In this document: positions 54,233-64,000 of the stretch, in pieces | How positions within the stretch are numbered: the first letter of the stretch is position 1 | Layout of the letters: the number at the start of each line of letters is the position of its first letter | Assembly: GCF_900106525.1 (NCBI RefSeq) | Contig: NZ_FNOG01000015.1 | Span: 1 to 64,000, forward strand | Reading direction: 5' to 3' | DNA length: 64,000 nt | DNA from: Lysobacter enzymogenes | Lineage (GTDB): Bacteria; Pseudomonadota; Gammaproteobacteria; Xanthomonadales; Xanthomonadaceae | Translations under genes and position numbers: made by a program | The notes under the pieces: generated by a model | The model's input: the letters and a program-made list of their open reading frames with translations, nothing else | What the model was told of the DNA's origin: nothing | Databases searched by the model: none

Positions 54233-54404
54233 ACAAACCTCCTGCGGCGTGCTGCGCTCCGGGCGAATCCCGAGCTCGTGGATCGATCCTCGCGCACTGG
54301 AAGTTGCCATGCGGTGAGGATGCGCGATGCCGTGCATGCGCGCTTCAGCGTGGTCAGGGTTTCGTTAACGCTGCGTACTCGCCGCGTCATCGCGATTGCC
54401 GACG

Positions 54405-54487
54405 GTAGGAGCGGCGCGAGCCGCGACCGCGACACCATGCTTGCGTCGTAAGCGCGATGTCGCGGTCGCGGCTTGCGCCGCTCCTAC
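54405..54487. repeat. Long hairpin repeat, family D (first copy)
   Basis: Two 30-base arms, GTAGGAGCGGCGCGAGCCGC... (54405-54434) and its complement ending GCGCCGCTCCTAC (54458-54487), differ at a single base and enclose 23 bases. The same arms occur at 61964-62052 in the reverse arrangement. The type is like REP sequences known from pseudomonads and xanthomonads. Confidence 0.9.
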
Positions 54488-54501
54488 AGGGGGGCGAACG
54501 A

Positions 54502-57732: not shown

Positions 57733-57857
57733 CAGCGGCCCCGCCGCGCTTCGCCGCGCGCCTGCTCCTCGTCCTCGCGCATCTCGAACCACATCGCGTT
57801 GAGCACGCCGAAGCTGCAGGCCAGGGCCAGGCCCAGAATCCAGGCGAAGTACCACAT
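57732..57857 (-). CDS. cydX: Cytochrome bd oxidase small subunit CydX
   Basis: A protein of 41 residues: MWYFAWILGLALACSFGVLN, then AMWFEMREDEEQARGEARRGR. This is the CydX/YbgT signature with one transmembrane helix and a charged tail. It stabilises the haem groups of CydAB. The start overlaps the cydB stop (TGATG) and is preceded by AAGGAGG, and the end overlaps ybgE in the same way. Confidence 0.94.
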   Translation of the reverse strand: MWYFAWILGLALACSFGVLNAMWFEMREDEEQARGEARRGR

Positions 57858-58990
57858 CAGTAACCTCCTTCATGGTCGCCCTGCGCCTGCACATGGGCGC
57901 GGGTGATGGTGCCGCGCATGACCCGGAACGCCCACGCGGTGTAGGCCAGGATCAGCGGCAGGAAGATCGCCGCGGCGACCAGCATGATCCCCAGCGTGCG
58001 CTGGCTGGACGAGGCGTCCCACACGGTCAGGCCGTGCGCGGGATCGGTCGACGAGGGCAGCAGGAACGGGAACAGCGACGCGCCGGCGGTGAGGATGATG
58101 CAAGCCACCGCGACGCCGCTGGCGATGAACGCCCACTTGCGCGAATGCAGCAGCGCGACCGCCAGCAACCCGGCGAACGCCAGGGCCGGCAACGCGATCA
58201 GCCACGGCTGCAGGGCGTAGTTCGCCAGCCAGCCGCCGTCGACCAGGATCGCGTGCTTGGCCAGCGGATCCGACGGCGCGCCGGTGTTCCAGGCGCCGAC
58301 GATGGCCGAGCCTGGCAACGAACGCAGCCACACGCCGGCCGCGGCGAACGCGGCGATCGCCGTCGCCGCGGCGATGCGGGCGATGCGCCGGGCGCGCGCG
58401 CCGACCGGGTCTTCCACCCGCATCGCCGCATAGCTGGCGCCGTGCATGGCCAGCATCGACAGGCTCACCACGCCGGCCAACAGCGCGAACGGATGGAACA
58501 GGCCGAGGAAGCTGCCGTCGTACACCGGCAGCAAGACGTCGGTGAAATGGAACGGCACGCCCAGGAACAGATTGCCGAAGGCCACGCCGAACACCAGCGA
58601 CGGCACCGCACCGGCGATGGTCAGCGCCCAGTCCCAGGCGCCGCGCCAACGCGCATGCGGCAGGCGGTTGCGGAAGGCGAAGCCGACCGGGCGCAGGATC
58701 AACGCCACCAGCAGCAGGAACATGGCGAAGTAGAACGCCGAGAACGAGGCCGCATACAGCAGCGGCCAGGCCGCGAAGACCGCGCCGCCGCCGAGGATGA
58801 ACCAGACCTGGTTGCCTTCCCAGTTCGGCTCGATCGCTTCCAGCGCCATGCGCCGCTCCACGTCGTCGCGGCCGATCAGACGCAAGATCGCACCCAGGCC
58901 GAGGTCGTAGCCGTCGGTGAGGGCGAAGCCGATCAGCAGCACGCCCAGCAGCAGCCACCACAGTTCGCGCAACAGTTCGTAATCGATCAT
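57857..58990 (-). CDS. cydB: Cytochrome bd ubiquinol oxidase subunit II
   Basis: Membrane subunit of the high-affinity terminal oxidase, 377 residues (E. coli 379) with eight to nine helices. It starts MIDYELLRELWWLLLGVLL, followed by ALTDGYDLG, EPNWEGNQVWFILGGGAVFAAWP (family block) and the C-terminal TLGIMLVAAAIFLPLILAYT. The ATG at 58990 with GAGGA before it was preferred over a TTG two codons earlier. It follows cydA after ten bases. Confidence 0.97.
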   Translation of the reverse strand: MIDYELLRELWWLLLGVLLIGFALTDGYDLGLGAILRLIGRDDVERRMALEAIEPNWEGNQVWFILGGGAVFAAWPLLYAASFSAFYFAMFLLLVALILRPVGFAFRNRLPHARWRGAWDWALTIAGAVPSLVFGVAFGNLFLGVPFHFTDVLLPVYDGSFLGLFHPFALLAGVVSLSMLAMHGASYAAMRVEDPVGARARRIARIAAATAIAAFAAAGVWLRSLPGSAIVGAWNTGAPSDPLAKHAILVDGGWLANYALQPWLIALPALAFAGLLAVALLHSRKWAFIASGVAVACIILTAGASLFPFLLPSSTDPAHGLTVWDASSSQRTLGIMLVAAAIFLPLILAYTAWAFRVMRGTITRAHVQAQGDHEGGY

Positions 58991-59000
58991 GGCCAAGTCC

Positions 59001-60560
59001 TCAGGCGGTATGCGCGGCAGCGGTGCGGGTCGCGGGCCAGAATTTCAGCTTGTCCGGCCCCGAGCGGATCGCGCGCAGCATCAGCACCGCATCGACCACG
59101 GCCAGGCCGGTGTAGAGCACGACGAAGCCGACCAGGCTGGCGATCACCTGGGTGGAGTTGGTCGCCGACACGCCCAGGAACGTCGGCAGCACGCCGTCGA
59201 TCGCCCAAGGCTGGCGGCCGTATTCGGCCACGATCCAGCCCAGCTCCGCCGCCACCCACGGCAGCGGCAGGCTGTACAGCGCCAGCCTCAGGAACCAGCG
59301 CTTTTCCAGCTGGTTGCGCGTGGCCAGCCAGAACGCGGCGGCGAACAGGAAGATGAAGTAGAAGCCCAGCCCGACCATGATCCGGAACGACCAGAACAGC
59401 ACCGGCACGTTCGGCACCGTGCTCCAGGCGGCGCGCTCGACGATCTCGTCGCTGGCGTTGGCCGGATCGGTGGTGTAACGCAAGGTCAGCAGGCCGAAGC
59501 CGAGGTCGTCGCGCAAGGCCATGAACGCGGCTTGCTTGTGCGGATCGTCGCGGTCGGCGCGCAGTTCGCGCAGCGCCTCATAGGCGCCGATGCCGCGGCG
59601 GATGCGGGCGCGGTTCTCTTCGACCAGCTCGTGGATGCCGGCGACTTCCTTGTCCAGCGAGCGCGTGGCGATCAGGCCCATCGCCCAGGGAATGCGCACG
59701 GCGTACTCGGTCTCGCGCTTGTCCATGTTCGGCAGGCCGAACAGGGTGAACGAGGCCGGCGCCGGATGGGTGCGCCATTCGGCCTCGATCGCGGCGACCT
59801 TCATCTTCTGGTTTTCCGAGGCGGTGTAGCCGCTCTCGTCGCCGAGCACCGCCACCGACAACGCCGAGGCCAGGCCGAAGCTCGCCGCCACCACCATCGA
59901 GCGCTTGGCGATCTCGACATTGCGCCCGCGCAGCAGATACCAGGCGCTGATCGACAGCACGAACATCGCGCCGGTGACGTAGCCGGCGCTGACGGTGTGC
60001 ACGAACTTGGCCTGCGCGACCGGGTTGAACACCACCGCGGCGAAGTCGGTGATCTCCATGCGCATGGTGTGGAAGTTGAATTCCGCGCCGACCGGGTTCT
60101 GCATCCAGCCGTTGGCGATCAGGATCCACAGCGCCGACAGGTTCGCGCCCAGCGCGGTCAGCCAGGTCACGGTGAGGTGCTGCAGCTTGCTGAGCCGGTC
60201 CCAGCCGAAGAAGAACAAACCGACGAAGGTGCTTTCCAGGAAGAACGCCATCAGCCCTTCGATCGCCAGCGGCGCGCCGAAGATGTCGCCGACGTAATGC
60301 GAGTAATAGGCCCAGTTGGTGCCGAACTGGAATTCCATGGTGATGCCGGTGGCCACGCCCATGGCGAAGTTGATCCCGAACAGCACGCCCCAGAAGCGGG
60401 TCATCTGCTTCCAGATGACCCGGCCGGTCATCACGTAGACGCTCTCCATGATCGCCATGATCAGCGCCAGGCCGATGGTCAGCGGCACGAACAGGAAGTG
60501 ATAGAGCGCGGTCAGCGCGAATTGCAGGCGCGACAGATCGACGAGGTACAGGTCCGGCAT
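59001..60560 (-). CDS. cydA: Cytochrome bd ubiquinol oxidase subunit I
   Basis: Haem-bearing subunit that oxidises quinol and reduces oxygen. The protein has 519 residues, which fits the long-Q-loop type. The haem b595 ligand is the His in LTALYHFLFVPLT, with further conserved GWMQNPVGAEFN, GRQPWAIDGVLPT and EFQFGTNW blocks. Nine transmembrane helices are expected. It is the second gene of the operon cydP-cydA-cydB-cydX-ybgE. An FNR-type box lies upstream of cydP, as expected for an oxidase induced at low oxygen. Confidence 0.97.
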   Translation of the reverse strand: MPDLYLVDLSRLQFALTALYHFLFVPLTIGLALIMAIMESVYVMTGRVIWKQMTRFWGVLFGINFAMGVATGITMEFQFGTNWAYYSHYVGDIFGAPLAIEGLMAFFLESTFVGLFFFGWDRLSKLQHLTVTWLTALGANLSALWILIANGWMQNPVGAEFNFHTMRMEITDFAAVVFNPVAQAKFVHTVSAGYVTGAMFVLSISAWYLLRGRNVEIAKRSMVVAASFGLASALSVAVLGDESGYTASENQKMKVAAIEAEWRTHPAPASFTLFGLPNMDKRETEYAVRIPWAMGLIATRSLDKEVAGIHELVEENRARIRRGIGAYEALRELRADRDDPHKQAAFMALRDDLGFGLLTLRYTTDPANASDEIVERAAWSTVPNVPVLFWSFRIMVGLGFYFIFLFAAAFWLATRNQLEKRWFLRLALYSLPLPWVAAELGWIVAEYGRQPWAIDGVLPTFLGVSATNSTQVIASLVGFVVLYTGLAVVDAVLMLRAIRSGPDKLKFWPATRTAAAHTA

Positions 60561-60565
60561 GGGAA

Positions 60566-60775
60566 TCACCTTGCGTGCAGAAGGAGCCGGTCGACCGCGC
60601 CGGCATCGACCGGCGGACGGTGCGAAGGCGAGAAGAACAGCAGATACAGCGCCGTCAGCAGCGCCAGCTTGGCCGCGATGGTCAGCGCGATGCGGCGCAG
60701 CAGCGCCGCGCTCCAGCGCGGCGGCGCCGCGGCGGACGCGCCGCATTCATCGAGCTGCGCTCGCGGAGTTTTCAC
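60566..60775 (-). CDS. cydP: Cytochrome oxidase putative small subunit CydP
   Basis: A protein of 69 residues with one transmembrane helix (IALTIAAKLALLTALYLLFF) followed by SPSHRPPVDAGAVDRLLL, which matches the CydP family found just before cydA in many proteobacteria. The start is a GTG at 60775 preceded by CGGAG. The stop lies five bases before the cydA ATG. It is probably a further small subunit or assembly helper of cytochrome bd. Confidence 0.88.
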   Translation of the reverse strand: MKTPRAQLDECGASAAAPPRWSAALLRRIALTIAAKLALLTALYLLFFSPSHRPPVDAGAVDRLLLHAR

Positions 60776-60829: not shown

Positions 60830-60843
60830 TTGATCCAGGTCAA
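60830..60843. promoter_or_regulatory. FNR/ANR-type box before the cyd operon
   Basis: TTGATCCAGGTCAA matches the consensus TTGATnnnnATCAA at nine of ten defined bases. Its centre is about 60 bases before the cydP start, so a transcription start near 60795 would put it at the class II position (-41.5). Confidence 0.72.
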
Positions 60844-60974: not shown

Positions 60975-60988
60975 TTGATCCGGGTCAA
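60975..60988. promoter_or_regulatory. FNR/ANR-type box before the universal stress protein gene
   Basis: TTGATCCGGGTCAA matches the FNR consensus at nine of ten defined bases. A possible -10 (GTAATG, 61011-61016) lies at the right distance, predicting a start near 61023 and a leader of about 30 bases. Confidence 0.72.
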
Positions 60989-61051: not shown

Positions 61052-61888
61052 ATGTACAAGGATCTGACCATTGCGATGACCGGCAGCGCCGGCGACGCCG
61101 ACGCGCTGCGTTTGGCGGTGAAGCTGGCCGCGCGCCACAGCGCGCGCCTGTCGGTGCTGGAAAGCGTCGACCTGCCGATGCCGATCAGCCACGCCTGGGA
61201 CATGCTCCCCGACCCGACCTCCGGCGCGGTCTACGCACAGTTGCGCGACCGCGGCCAGCAGCGCCTGGCGGAGCTGAAGGCGCGCCTGGACGACGAGACC
61301 GTGAGCTGGGACGCGCGTGTGGTCGAAGCGCTTTACGCCGACGCGCCGCACACCGTCGCGCGCGAAGCCTTCGATGCCGATGTCTGCCTGGTCGCCGGCA
61401 GCGGCGGCGATGCGTCCAACGCATCGGCCCTGCATGCGTGGTTCACCGCGCTGCTGCTCGAATCCGGCCGCCCGGTGCTGGTGGTGCCGCCGAACAGCGG
61501 CCCGACCCTGCCGCTGCGACGGGCGATGATCGCCTGGCAACCCACCCGCCAGACCACGCGCGCCGTGCACGACGCGCTGCCGCTGCTGGCCGATGCCGGC
61601 CTGGTGGAACTGGTGCTGATCGGCCAGGGCGACGACGACCCGGCGCAGGAATCGGCGCGGCGCATGGTCGCGCATCTGGTCCGCCACAGCATTCCCACCG
61701 ACTTGGTCAGCCTGCGCGCCGGCGACCGCGGCGTCGCCGAGGTGCTGCTCGACTATGCCGAACGCAGCGGCGTGCAGTTGCTGGTGGCCGGCGGCTACGG
61801 GCATTCGCGGTTGCGCGAATGGGTGCTGGGCGGGGTGACGCGCGAGTTGTTGACGTCGGCGTCGCTGCCGGTGTTTTTCGGGCATTGA
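61052..61888 (+). CDS. Universal stress protein with two UspA domains
   Basis: A cytoplasmic protein of 278 residues made of two UspA modules (about 1-145 and 150-278). The second module has the ATP-binding signature GGYGHSRLREWVLGGVTRELL. The first has a weaker form (AGSGGDASNASALHAWF), so only the second may bind nucleotide. Tandem Usp proteins are often induced by low oxygen. An FNR-type box and GGAGAAG ribosome site precede this gene. It is divergent from the cyd operon. Confidence 0.9.
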   Translation: MYKDLTIAMTGSAGDADALRLAVKLAARHSARLSVLESVDLPMPISHAWDMLPDPTSGAVYAQLRDRGQQRLAELKARLDDETVSWDARVVEALYADAPHTVAREAFDADVCLVAGSGGDASNASALHAWFTALLLESGRPVLVVPPNSGPTLPLRRAMIAWQPTRQTTRAVHDALPLLADAGLVELVLIGQGDDDPAQESARRMVAHLVRHSIPTDLVSLRAGDRGVAEVLLDYAERSGVQLLVAGGYGHSRLREWVLGGVTRELLTSASLPVFFGH

Positions 61889-61963: not shown

Positions 61964-62052
61964 TGTCGCGGTCGCGGCTTGCGCCGCTCCTACAGGGGCT
62001 TCGGCGAGATTCGTATCCGACTGTAGGAGCGGCGCAAGCCGCGACCGCGACA
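61964..62052. repeat. Long hairpin repeat, family D (second copy, reversed)
   Basis: The arms TGTCGCGGTCGCGGCTTGCG... (61964-61993) and the exact complement ending CCGCGACCGCGACA (62023-62052) are 30 bases long and perfectly complementary around 29 bases. Compared with the copy at 54405 the arms are in opposite order, so the stem closes from the other end. It lies between convergent genes. Confidence 0.92.
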
Positions 62053-62129: not shown

Positions 62130-62993
62130 CTAAGGCCGCACGCCCACCGGCGCATCGAGCCACGGCTGCATCGCCGCCGCAATCCGCCCCTGCGCCGCCC
62201 GCAATGCCTGCGGCGTAGCGCCGTACAAATCGCGCAATCGCGCATAAGCCGGCTCGATTCCATCGCTGGCGCCGTTGGCCAACCGCGCCAGCGACGGCTG
62301 CGGCCGCACCCGGGTCAGGCGCGCATGGCGACGGTTGCCCGCCACCGCATCGGCCAGCGCCGCGGGCAACTCGCGCGAGCGCCACCGTTCGCTCAACCCC
62401 GCCGCCTCGCCGCGGGCGCCGCGCTCGCGCGCCAGCCGTCCCGCGCCCTGCGCGCAGCCCAGTGCGAGCGAACGCGCCATCGCCTGCGCCTGCGCCGCAG
62501 CGGCGTCGCCGAGGTAATCCACGCCCAGCAGCGCCAACGCGTCGGCGACGCCGATCAAACCGACTTCCAGGCGCAGGCCGCCGGCGACCTCCGCGCCGAA
62601 CGCCTCGGCCGCGTCGTCGAGCAGGCGCACCGCCAGCGCCGCCGTCGCTGCGAAGCGCTCGAAATCGAAACGCGCGCGCGCGCCGCCGGGCTCGATCACG
62701 AACGCGCCGGCGTTGAGCGCCGCACGCGGTGCGCGCAACGGCGGCACCGCGCGCTCGGTGCCGGCGCGGCGCAGCAGGCGCGGGTCGGGCAGCAACTGCC
62801 AGGCGCCGAACGCAGCCGCGTAACGGTTGCGCCAGTAGCCGCCGTCGCCGCCGCTGCCGCCCACGGCCGCCGCCACCCGTTGCCAGGTCGCGTCGATGGT
62901 GCGGTCGCGCAGGCGCTCGCCGCTGCGCCAGCGGAAGCGCCGGTCCCACAGGTCGACAGCATGCGGATCGGTGAATCGGGTCAGGCGGGTCAC
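62130..62993 (-). CDS. Degenerate class II ribonucleotide reductase-like protein lacking the catalytic core
   Basis: A protein of 287 residues. Three stretches resemble B12-dependent reductase NrdJ: the start (AVDLWDRRFRWRSGERLRD), the middle (FDFERFAATAALAVRLLDDA, then LRLEVGLIGVADALALLGVDY) and the end (GNRRHARLTRVRPQPSLARL, NGASDGIEPAY). In NrdJ the last two read RRIGLGVTGLADALAMLG and APTGTISLLAGNVSSGIEP. The region that carries the thiyl-radical cysteine is missing, and the usual CNLG is ALNAG here. Only one cysteine (C180) remains. It cannot be a reductase in its own right. The start is a GTG at 62993. An FNR-type box lies about 70 bases upstream. Resemblance is judged by eye. Confidence 0.65.
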   Translation of the reverse strand: MTRLTRFTDPHAVDLWDRRFRWRSGERLRDRTIDATWQRVAAAVGGSGGDGGYWRNRYAAAFGAWQLLPDPRLLRRAGTERAVPPLRAPRAALNAGAFVIEPGGARARFDFERFAATAALAVRLLDDAAEAFGAEVAGGLRLEVGLIGVADALALLGVDYLGDAAAAQAQAMARSLALGCAQGAGRLARERGARGEAAGLSERWRSRELPAALADAVAGNRRHARLTRVRPQPSLARLANGASDGIEPAYARLRDLYGATPQALRAAQGRIAAAMQPWLDAPVGVRP

Positions 62994-63059
62994 GGCAAGT
63001 CCGAGGGCTGCGGGGCGCACCCGCTCGCGTCCACTGTGCCCGCGTCGCACCGGGCATTC

Positions 63060-63073
63060 TTGATCGGGATCAA
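63060..63073. promoter_or_regulatory. Perfect FNR/ANR box between the reductase-like gene and the Crp/Fnr gene
   Basis: TTGATCGGGATCAA matches TTGATnnnnATCAA at every defined position. The centre is about 73 bases before the reductase-like start and about 210 bases before the Crp/Fnr start, so the former is the likelier target. Control of both is possible. Confidence 0.8.
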
Positions 63074-63277
63074 GTTCGCCCGCGATCACAACGCCGCGGT
63101 GCCTGGGCGCGACCCGCCGCTGCGCCGCAAAGGCCACAACACCAGCAAGCGCGCTCAACGAGCACGTCAAAACGAGCGCGTTACAAACCGTTACCGCTGG
63201 TTACCGCTTCCGCATCGGCGCGCGCCTTCGCGCGTCTAGCCTGTGCCCGGTCAAACCGCCGAACCGGAATCGCCGTC

Positions 63278-64000
63278 ATGCTGCTCGAACACACCGTCTA
63301 CGCCGACTCCGGCTTCGCCGCCGACAGCGCCGCCGCCCACTACGCCGGGGACGACGCGCTGGAACCGTGGCTGCAGCGCGAACTGCTGCGCCTGGGCTGG
63401 CCGCTGCAACGCCGCCGGGTGCGCGCCAAGCAGCATGTGTTCCGCGCCGGCCAGCCGCGCACCGCGCTGTACCTGGTGCATGCCGGCTGCTTCAAGACCG
63501 CGCTGGTCAGCGAAGACGGGCGCGAGAAGATCACCGGCTTCCGCCTGCGCGGCGATCTGCTCGGCCTGGACGCGCTGGACATGAACGCCTACGCCTGCGA
63601 CGCGGTCGCGCTCGACACCGGCGAGCTGTGGGAAGTGCCGTTCGCGCGGCTGCGCAGCGAGCTGCCGCAGTTCCAGGAGCGCATCACCGCACTGCTTGCA
63701 CGCGAGATCCGCCGCGACTGGACCTGGATGCTGGCGCTGGGCACGCTCGGCGCCGACCAGCGCGTGGTGACGTTCCTGTTCGACCTGGCCGCGCGCCTGC
63801 AGGCGCTGGGCTTCAGCGGCGAACGCCTGCAACTGCGCATGACCCGCGCCGAACTCGGCAATTTCCTGTCGCTGACGTTGGAAACGGTGGCGCGCTCGCT
63901 GTCGCGCCTGCAGGCGCGCGGGTTGATCGAAGTGGCCGGCCGCGAGATCGTCCTGCGCGACCGCGCCGCGCTGAGCGGGTTGCTCGCGGCGGGCGGCCGC
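63278..64000 (+). CDS. Crp/Fnr family transcriptional regulator (3' end outside window)
   Basis: At least 241 residues, probably lacking only a few at the end. A cyclic-nucleotide-binding-like sensor domain (about 35-140) has KITGFRLRGDLLGLDAL, very close to the FNR text. A dimer helix precedes the helix-turn-helix TRAELGNFLSLTLETVARSLSRLQ (189-212). In the recognition helix E202 and R206 match FNR, but Ala205 replaces the FNR serine. The N-terminal cysteine cluster of FNR is absent. Only C71 and C107 exist, so no FNR-type iron-sulphur cluster is expected. An FNR box lies 200 bases upstream. Confidence 0.9.
   Translation, partial: MLLEHTVYADSGFAADSAAAHYAGDDALEPWLQRELLRLGWPLQRRRVRAKQHVFRAGQPRTALYLVHAGCFKTALVSEDGREKITGFRLRGDLLGLDALDMNAYACDAVALDTGELWEVPFARLRSELPQFQERITALLAREIRRDWTWMLALGTLGADQRVVTFLFDLAARLQALGFSGERLQLRMTRAELGNFLSLTLETVARSLSRLQARGLIEVAGREIVLRDRAALSGLLAAGGR

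Follow-up and report, generated by a model that had tools for sequence, protein, structure and literature searches.

Relatives of ribonucleotide reductases have been described in settings that partly resemble the one reported here. In the available part of a study on Mycobacterium tuberculosis, NrdZ is named as a peripheral member of the DosR regulon (PMC4428469). The accessible text on the low-oxygen-activated (lxa) locus of Burkholderia lists a 'ribonucleotide reductase-like protein', BCAM0310 (PMC4981469). Moreover, UL45 of human cytomegalovirus (HCMV) is one of the herpesvirus homologues of the reductase large subunit; according to the available sections of the paper, it has lost its activity and fulfils another job (PMC5469499).

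In the window, which is the whole stretch of 64,000 nucleotides analysed in this study, we describe a gene for a small relative of class II reductases without a catalytic core, referred to as the mini. Like NrdZ in the DosR regulon, whose core is given in the part of the source at hand as universal stress proteins and alpha-crystallins, the mini would be a class II relative in a hypoxia regulon; however, NrdZ is described there as a B12-dependent reductase and not as a core-less protein, and it stands under another regulator (PMC4428469). With the lxa locus, as far as the available text describes it, the mini shares a reductase relative, a universal stress protein (Usp), a heat shock protein, a two-component pair and putative regulators of the CRP family (PMC4981469). 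BCAM0310 is likened to the mini by its description in that text, and the 128.9-fold value given for it was rejected as a measure of low-oxygen induction because the table compares two isolates (PMC4981469). UL45 resembles what is proposed for the mini in that it is a reductase homologue which is inactive and serves a different function, judged by the accessible sections (PMC5469499). Unlike the mini it is viral, and it is not under the FNR control that is predicted for the mini. Furthermore, we take UL45 to be related to the class I large subunit and to miss no half-barrel. A description of a core-less reductase family was not found in the literature searched, which most subscription papers lay outside; within this literature, the statement of the original prediction that such a protein has no described role held.

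The mini gene and its family matches

The mini gene is located at 62130..62993 on the minus strand and encodes 287 amino acids starting with a GTG at 62993. Upstream of this codon the frame is still open, and GTG or TTG occupies the start position in 11/11 copies of the genus. As predicted, the frame is intact and contains no internal stop. A plus-strand frame of 304 amino acids (62325-63239) overlaps the gene; the family matches fall on the minus-strand frame.

In the profile searches PF02867 matched residues 92-251 of the mini (profile positions 231-407 of 523) with an E-value of 3.6e-5 and 23.0 bits, slightly below the cut-off of 23.9. NCBIfam NF005401 'ribonucleotide reductase-like protein' matched with E 1.5e-11 and 43.6 bits at a cut-off of 906, and NrdJ_Z with E 9.4e-11, far below its cut-off, so that the window protein misses the curated cut-offs of all these families. 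In a set from the genus that was made up of the window protein and nine relatives, PF02867 was found in 10/10 and PF00317, the N-terminal all-alpha domain, in 4/10 at E 0.01. Searching solved structures with the single sequence gave weak matches (best E 0.0059), and a 10-row genus profile matched reductases at E 6.4e-8 with coverage of the second half-barrel only. The reductase family was the sole type of match in PHROGs, and a search for plasmid-borne minis gave zero matches. Based on these profile matches and on its position in the tree described below, the mini at 62130-62993 is a relative, by common ancestry, of the NrdJ/NrdZ class II ribonucleotide reductases, in agreement with the relationship first proposed for it.

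PF02867 has three places in the host genome: an NrdA-type protein, a full NrdJ-type protein and the mini. The NrdA, assigned to class I by eye, is adjoined by an NrdB-like frame, and the full-length NrdJ comprises 717 amino acids. These places speak against the mini being one piece of a trans-split active reductase with its other half encoded elsewhere. Split class II enzymes exist in Pseudomonas aeruginosa, according to the accessible part of the source (PMC4520616), but, in addition to the evidence of the three PF02867 places, redox and loop residues are also substituted in the half that the mini has kept, and we regard such a split as barely credible. For the host genome it was ruled out unless the other half bears no likeness to PF02867. 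The detached C-terminal subunit of the NrdJb type carries a cysteine-rich zinc-finger domain, as stated in the available text (PMC5704485); the mini in the window, which contains a single cysteine, has no such domain.

Loss of the catalytic core

Class II reductases fold as a ten-stranded alpha/beta barrel. We take the radical cysteine to be that of NPCGE, the redox cysteine pair to lie in FNC and CNLG, and PTGTIS to be the phosphate loop. The core-less form is not confined to the host genome, since 32 such genes were collected. In an alignment of 22/32 minis with 12 full-length proteins the absent block corresponds to residues 80-273 of the 577-aa reference L110 (~194 residues), and half of the reductase barrel sequence is missing from the mini. 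The FNC and NPCGE cysteines fall inside the deleted block; the positions of the CNLG cysteine and the PTGTIS loop sit in the kept part, where the residues are substituted. Accordingly, a motif search for NPCGE, FNC, CNLG and PTGTIS found each of them in 0/32 minis. Of the 22 full-length comparison proteins, 18 of which had been selected by the presence of NPC[GA]E, this motif occurs in 22, the CNLG type in 22, the PTGTIS type in 21 and the FNC type in 20. From the AGT motif to the N..F strand the spacing amounts to 13-15 aa in the 29/32 minis and to 206-245 aa in the 11/22 full-length proteins in which it was measurable. The losses of the radical-cysteine region and of the CNLG cysteine that had been noticed in the window protein are thus found throughout the collected minis.

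On the minus strand of the window, residues 1-79 of the mini (62757..62993) form the remnant of the N-terminal all-alpha region, as indicated by alignment, blastp, PF00317 and a region test; the first 80 residues are homologous to NrdZ-like N-termini (blastp comparison with full-length proteins, lowest E 3e-12). Residues 80-91 (62721..62756) are the junction at which the first half-barrel and the radical-cysteine loop are absent. The second half-barrel remnant, delimited by PF02867 and by conserved and derived columns, comprises residues 92-252 (62238..62720) and includes the substituted CNLG cysteine and PTGTIS loop. Residues 253-287 (62133..62237) align as a shortened C-terminal remnant with WLDAP at the place of the reductase VDxxISKTxN. 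Several minis from other families of the order keep a longer C-terminal remnant in the alignment, and therefore the shortening probably continued after the first deletion. From these losses we infer that the mini cannot reduce ribonucleotides.

Presumably, the half that is deleted from the minis also held the dimer interface and the specificity site of the reductases. This concerns the possibility that the mini is a ligand sensor which has retained the ability to bind cobalamin, a nucleotide or a deoxynucleotide and signals this to a partner. Such a role would agree with the N-terminal region and the second half-barrel being kept under selection, but the PTGTIS phosphate loop is absent in 32/32 minis, the region of the specificity site is presumably deleted, and no usable fold was obtained from the single-sequence AlphaFold2 model of the window mini (mean pLDDT 36.9, pTM 0.26), which was too low for a fold search. 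We therefore consider a sensor unlikely.

Origin and distribution of the minis

In a maximum-likelihood tree of 51 proteins (269 shared columns), from which the partial L099 was omitted, 31/31 minis form one clade with a UFBoot value of 100. This clade groups with short NrdZ-like reductases of ~600 aa, apart from the group of the cell's own NrdJ; its branch is long, and its exact position among the NrdZ-like lineages is weakly supported (79-88). The short NrdZ-like reductases (nearest PRK06948 and NrdJ_Z; L110, L064, L074 and L075) align with the minis in the N-terminal region and the second half-barrel, and they differ in keeping NPCGE/CNLG/PTGTIS-type motifs and the internal residues that the minis have lost. 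The core loss looks like a single event common to the minis. Descent from a short (~600 aa) NrdZ-like class II reductase is the first part of an explanation which, taken as a whole, we consider reasonably probable.

Only G023 and G417, neither of which has a mini, gave short NrdZ-like matches among the 42 genomes examined. Three incomplete genomes among the 31 mini genomes gave zero reductase matches. Outside the order, the genes of full-length NrdZ-like proteins are for the most part not located in low-oxygen clusters; of nine loci inspected by eye, one (L121) has acetate kinase and phosphoketolase-like genes as neighbours. In one genome (G516, C1:693998-696769) the NrdJ-type match extends over 2772 nt in a frame of 1105 aa, possibly due to an intein or an insertion.

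Within the genus, a full-length copy of the mini with 55-100% identity is present in 11/20 genomes, host included; of the remaining genomes, five show only weak matches, which lie in 722-763 aa frames, and the other four show no match. The family sample (n = 297 genomes) contained the mini in 22 genomes, with 23 genes at 214-497 bits, and the next-best match of 79 bits lay within a reductase frame of 685 aa. One of these genomes (G171) carries two minis (C20:721701 and C30:190661), each next to its own FNR-like gene. In the order sample (n = 299) 13 genomes passed E 1e-22, and 12 mini carriers are left as the match in G417 is a full-length reductase. No mini was found outside the host's order in the class sample (n = 369); the 15 matches beyond the order stem from open frames 438-985 aa long, and NPC[GA]E is present in all ten of them that were read. 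The phylum sample (n = 299) likewise gave zero matches outside the host's order at E 1e-27; the genome samples overlap in part and weaker minis may escape the E limits. None of the mini matches has an internal stop, and the partial L099 ends at the end of its contig. Three minis of the genus (L012, L013 and L014) end in three clustered cysteines (DCEDRLCSxC), which do not occur in the other eight genus copies.

Purifying selection and new invariant residues

The original prediction held that the gene is maintained. Among the 55 pairs of the 11 genus copies, dN/dS was 0.15-0.44 for the 16 closest, the listed pairs being those with pN <0.25, which confirms maintenance; the ratios lie well below 1 and thus give no sign of a decaying pseudogene. 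Five bootstrapped mini pairs had ratios of 0.22-0.42 with intervals below 1 in 5/5, and a value of 1 was never reached in 2000 replicates each. The neighbouring FNR-like gene is under tighter constraint than the mini (0.03-0.16). Constraint in five close genus members is tightest over the first 45 alignment columns, with a pN/pS of 0.20 versus 0.41-0.46 from column 92 onwards. A decaying, functionless reductase remnant would fit the weaker constraint compared with the regulator and the patchy presence in 11/20 genus genomes, but the low dN/dS in 16 pairs, the matches free of stops, the constant length of the junction and the conserved promoter arrangement make decay very improbable.

Invariant columns were compared for 29 minis (L087, L088 and L099 were omitted). 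Tryptophan 65 is present in 29/29 minis, where NrdZ has phenylalanine in 9/10, and at the PTGTIS positions glycine is replaced by proline in 26/29 and serine by alanine in 28/29. Of 134 alignable columns conserved in NrdZ, 56 are retained in the minis. The fixation of residues that are absent from NrdZ speaks for a new function over mere relaxation, and the mini probably has a new, non-enzymatic job.

A conserved predicted promoter of the FNR type

The box of the FNR/Anr type under which the gene had been placed was recovered as an exact match, TTGATCGGGATCAA, at 63060..63073, 66 nt upstream of the start codon of the mini. It is the sole exact match to the FNR box in the 64 kb. Boxes with at most one mismatch number 3 in the 64 kb versus 0.28 expected, and all are located at 60.8-63.1 kb; two of the FNR-type boxes, with one mismatch each, lie at 60830-60843 and 60975-60988 between usp and the cytochrome bd genes. 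In 21/32 loci the 360 nt upstream of the mini contain a box with zero or one mismatch, and its centre is always 107-123 nt ahead of the same tryptophan codon, as in the window. Elsewhere in the mini loci the background amounts to 0.064 boxes per 360 nt, and in shuffled loci to 0.0011. Ten of the 11/32 loci without such a box have one with two mismatches and L102 has none; hence, the best box stands at the conserved position in 31/32 loci at up to two mismatches.

Besides, a -10-like hexamer, CACAGT (63033..63038, minus strand), begins 22 nt from the end of the box. A hexamer of the form NA[ACT]AGT occurs at an offset of 22-23 in 17/31 loci and at no other offset within 60 nt; it was picked post hoc from the alignment, and 11 of the 17 carrying loci belong to one genus. 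In 15/32 mini loci the hexamer is absent. A scan with the sigma-70 consensus found neither a promoter nor a terminator at the mini. In class II activation by FNR the box is centred at -41.5. The spacing between box and hexamer fits this class, with a predicted transcription start near 63026. The promoter of the mini would thus represent a conserved FNR class II-type arrangement, which suggests that the gene is switched on at low oxygen.

The neighbourhood and the FNR-like regulator

The survey of the 32 mini genes and their context revealed recurring neighbours, namely an FNR-like gene in 29/32 and a hybrid kinase in 28/32 loci, as judged by clustering with domains confirmed in the host genome only. 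In the window the gene of the FNR-like regulator (63278..64000, plus strand) is divergent from the mini, and its frame runs on to 64009 past the end of the window. A universal stress protein gene (61052..61888, plus strand; PF00582) is convergent with the mini, followed on the minus strand by open frames for cytochrome bd oxidase subunit I (59001-60746) and subunit II (57857-58996), with PF02322/PF01654 matches for the pair. REP-like inverted pairs of TGTAGGAGCGGCGCAAGCCGCGAC were observed at 61971-62045 and 54404-54488 (4 matches with at most 3 mismatches, 0 expected), and one of these pairs separates the mini from the convergent usp gene. Past the window (contig C18, ~64037-66762; L078 11538-14263), a DNA-binding response regulator and a PAS-GAF hybrid histidine kinase adjoin the FNR-like gene; this pair is possibly the signal input of the regulator.

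The FNR-like gene is not nearby in L102, L103 and L109. In L102, which has neither the box nor a nearby regulator, the mini lies among genes for Usp, GNAT, Hsp20, phosphoketolase and acetate kinase. The regulator is the sole match to the FNR model NF008365 in the host genome at E 1e-8. A C..C pattern is absent from the N-terminal part of the window regulator and, more widely, from the 60 residues before the binding-domain motif in 21/21 readable copies; it is present in three other FNR-type genes from the same loci.

In the genus, the mini and the FNR-like gene occur in the identical 11/20 genomes, a co-occurrence that linkage alone could explain. In the family, the regulator was found with at least 224 bits in 22/22 mini genomes, and 13 genomes carry the regulator without the mini. 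No mini-like frame was detected among the 137 open frames listed for these 13 genomes; among the listed neighbours, Usp, Hsp20 or dehydrogenase genes were seen nearby by eye.

These observations are compatible with a role unrelated to reductases, in which the remnant fold was recruited to bind another protein or a nucleic acid within the low-oxygen module. In favour of it are the new invariants, which differ from NrdZ family-wide, the presumed deletion of the interface and specificity-site regions, and the restriction of the mini, within the family, to genomes in which the regulator occurs (22/22). On the other hand, no partner and no domain of another kind was found, and many ancestral positions are kept (the 56/134 columns mentioned above). 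We regard this reading as possible, though not as the probable one.

A possible pseudoenzyme effector

The mini takes a place that fits a hypoxia regulon but is devoid of the parts that the enzyme requires, and an inactive cytomegalovirus homologue is known; therefore, we favour a pseudoenzyme effector which acts by binding. On balance, we think it fairly probable, judged from the sequence comparisons, that the mini is such an effector of a low-oxygen survival regulon and acts by protein binding. One deletion, common to the minis, removed the first half-barrel and the radical-cysteine loop, and the kept part stayed under purifying selection and gained new invariant residues. The gene lies beside those of the FNR-like regulator, the two-component system, Usp and cytochrome bd; the mini would be made at low oxygen and would bind another protein via its conserved N-terminal region and the half-barrel remnant. 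It might thereby serve as an optional effector of the regulon. Against this reading count the loci without box or hexamer, the three loci that have no FNR-like gene nearby, the weaker selection than on the regulator, the 13 genomes with the regulator but no mini, and the full-length NrdZ-like genes elsewhere, most of which stand outside low-oxygen clusters. The original interpretation held in part: the view of a maintained, non-catalytic reductase relative with an FNR-type promoter stood, and it is sharpened to kinship with NrdZ-like reductases, a single loss and a module of low-oxygen type.

The partner may be the full-length class II NrdJ of the cell, whose activity the mini would lower in non-growing cells; this is a guess, which we put forward tentatively. 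Of the mini genomes with a completeness of 90% or more, 28/28 have an NrdJ-type match and 5/28 have no NrdA-type match, the types being assigned from score and frame length. NrdJ is widespread in the family, however, and finding it is hardly evidence of a partnership. The presumed position of the dimer interface and the specificity site in the deleted half also counts against this partner. The full scenario, in which a half-barrel pseudo-reductase pairs with NrdJ as oxygen falls and turns dNTP synthesis down for dormancy, appears rather doubtful.

Ribonucleotide reductases are universal and closely studied, and a maintained bacterial family with a half-barrel and without the core would give a clear example of how pseudoenzymes evolve. 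The fixed promoter and the tight link to one regulator permit a direct test of the mini. Should the pairing with NrdJ be true, the mini would be a bacterial inhibitor protein that derives from a reductase and acts on one. The mini could show how DNA precursors are controlled on oxygen starvation, or how the reductase fold is reused.
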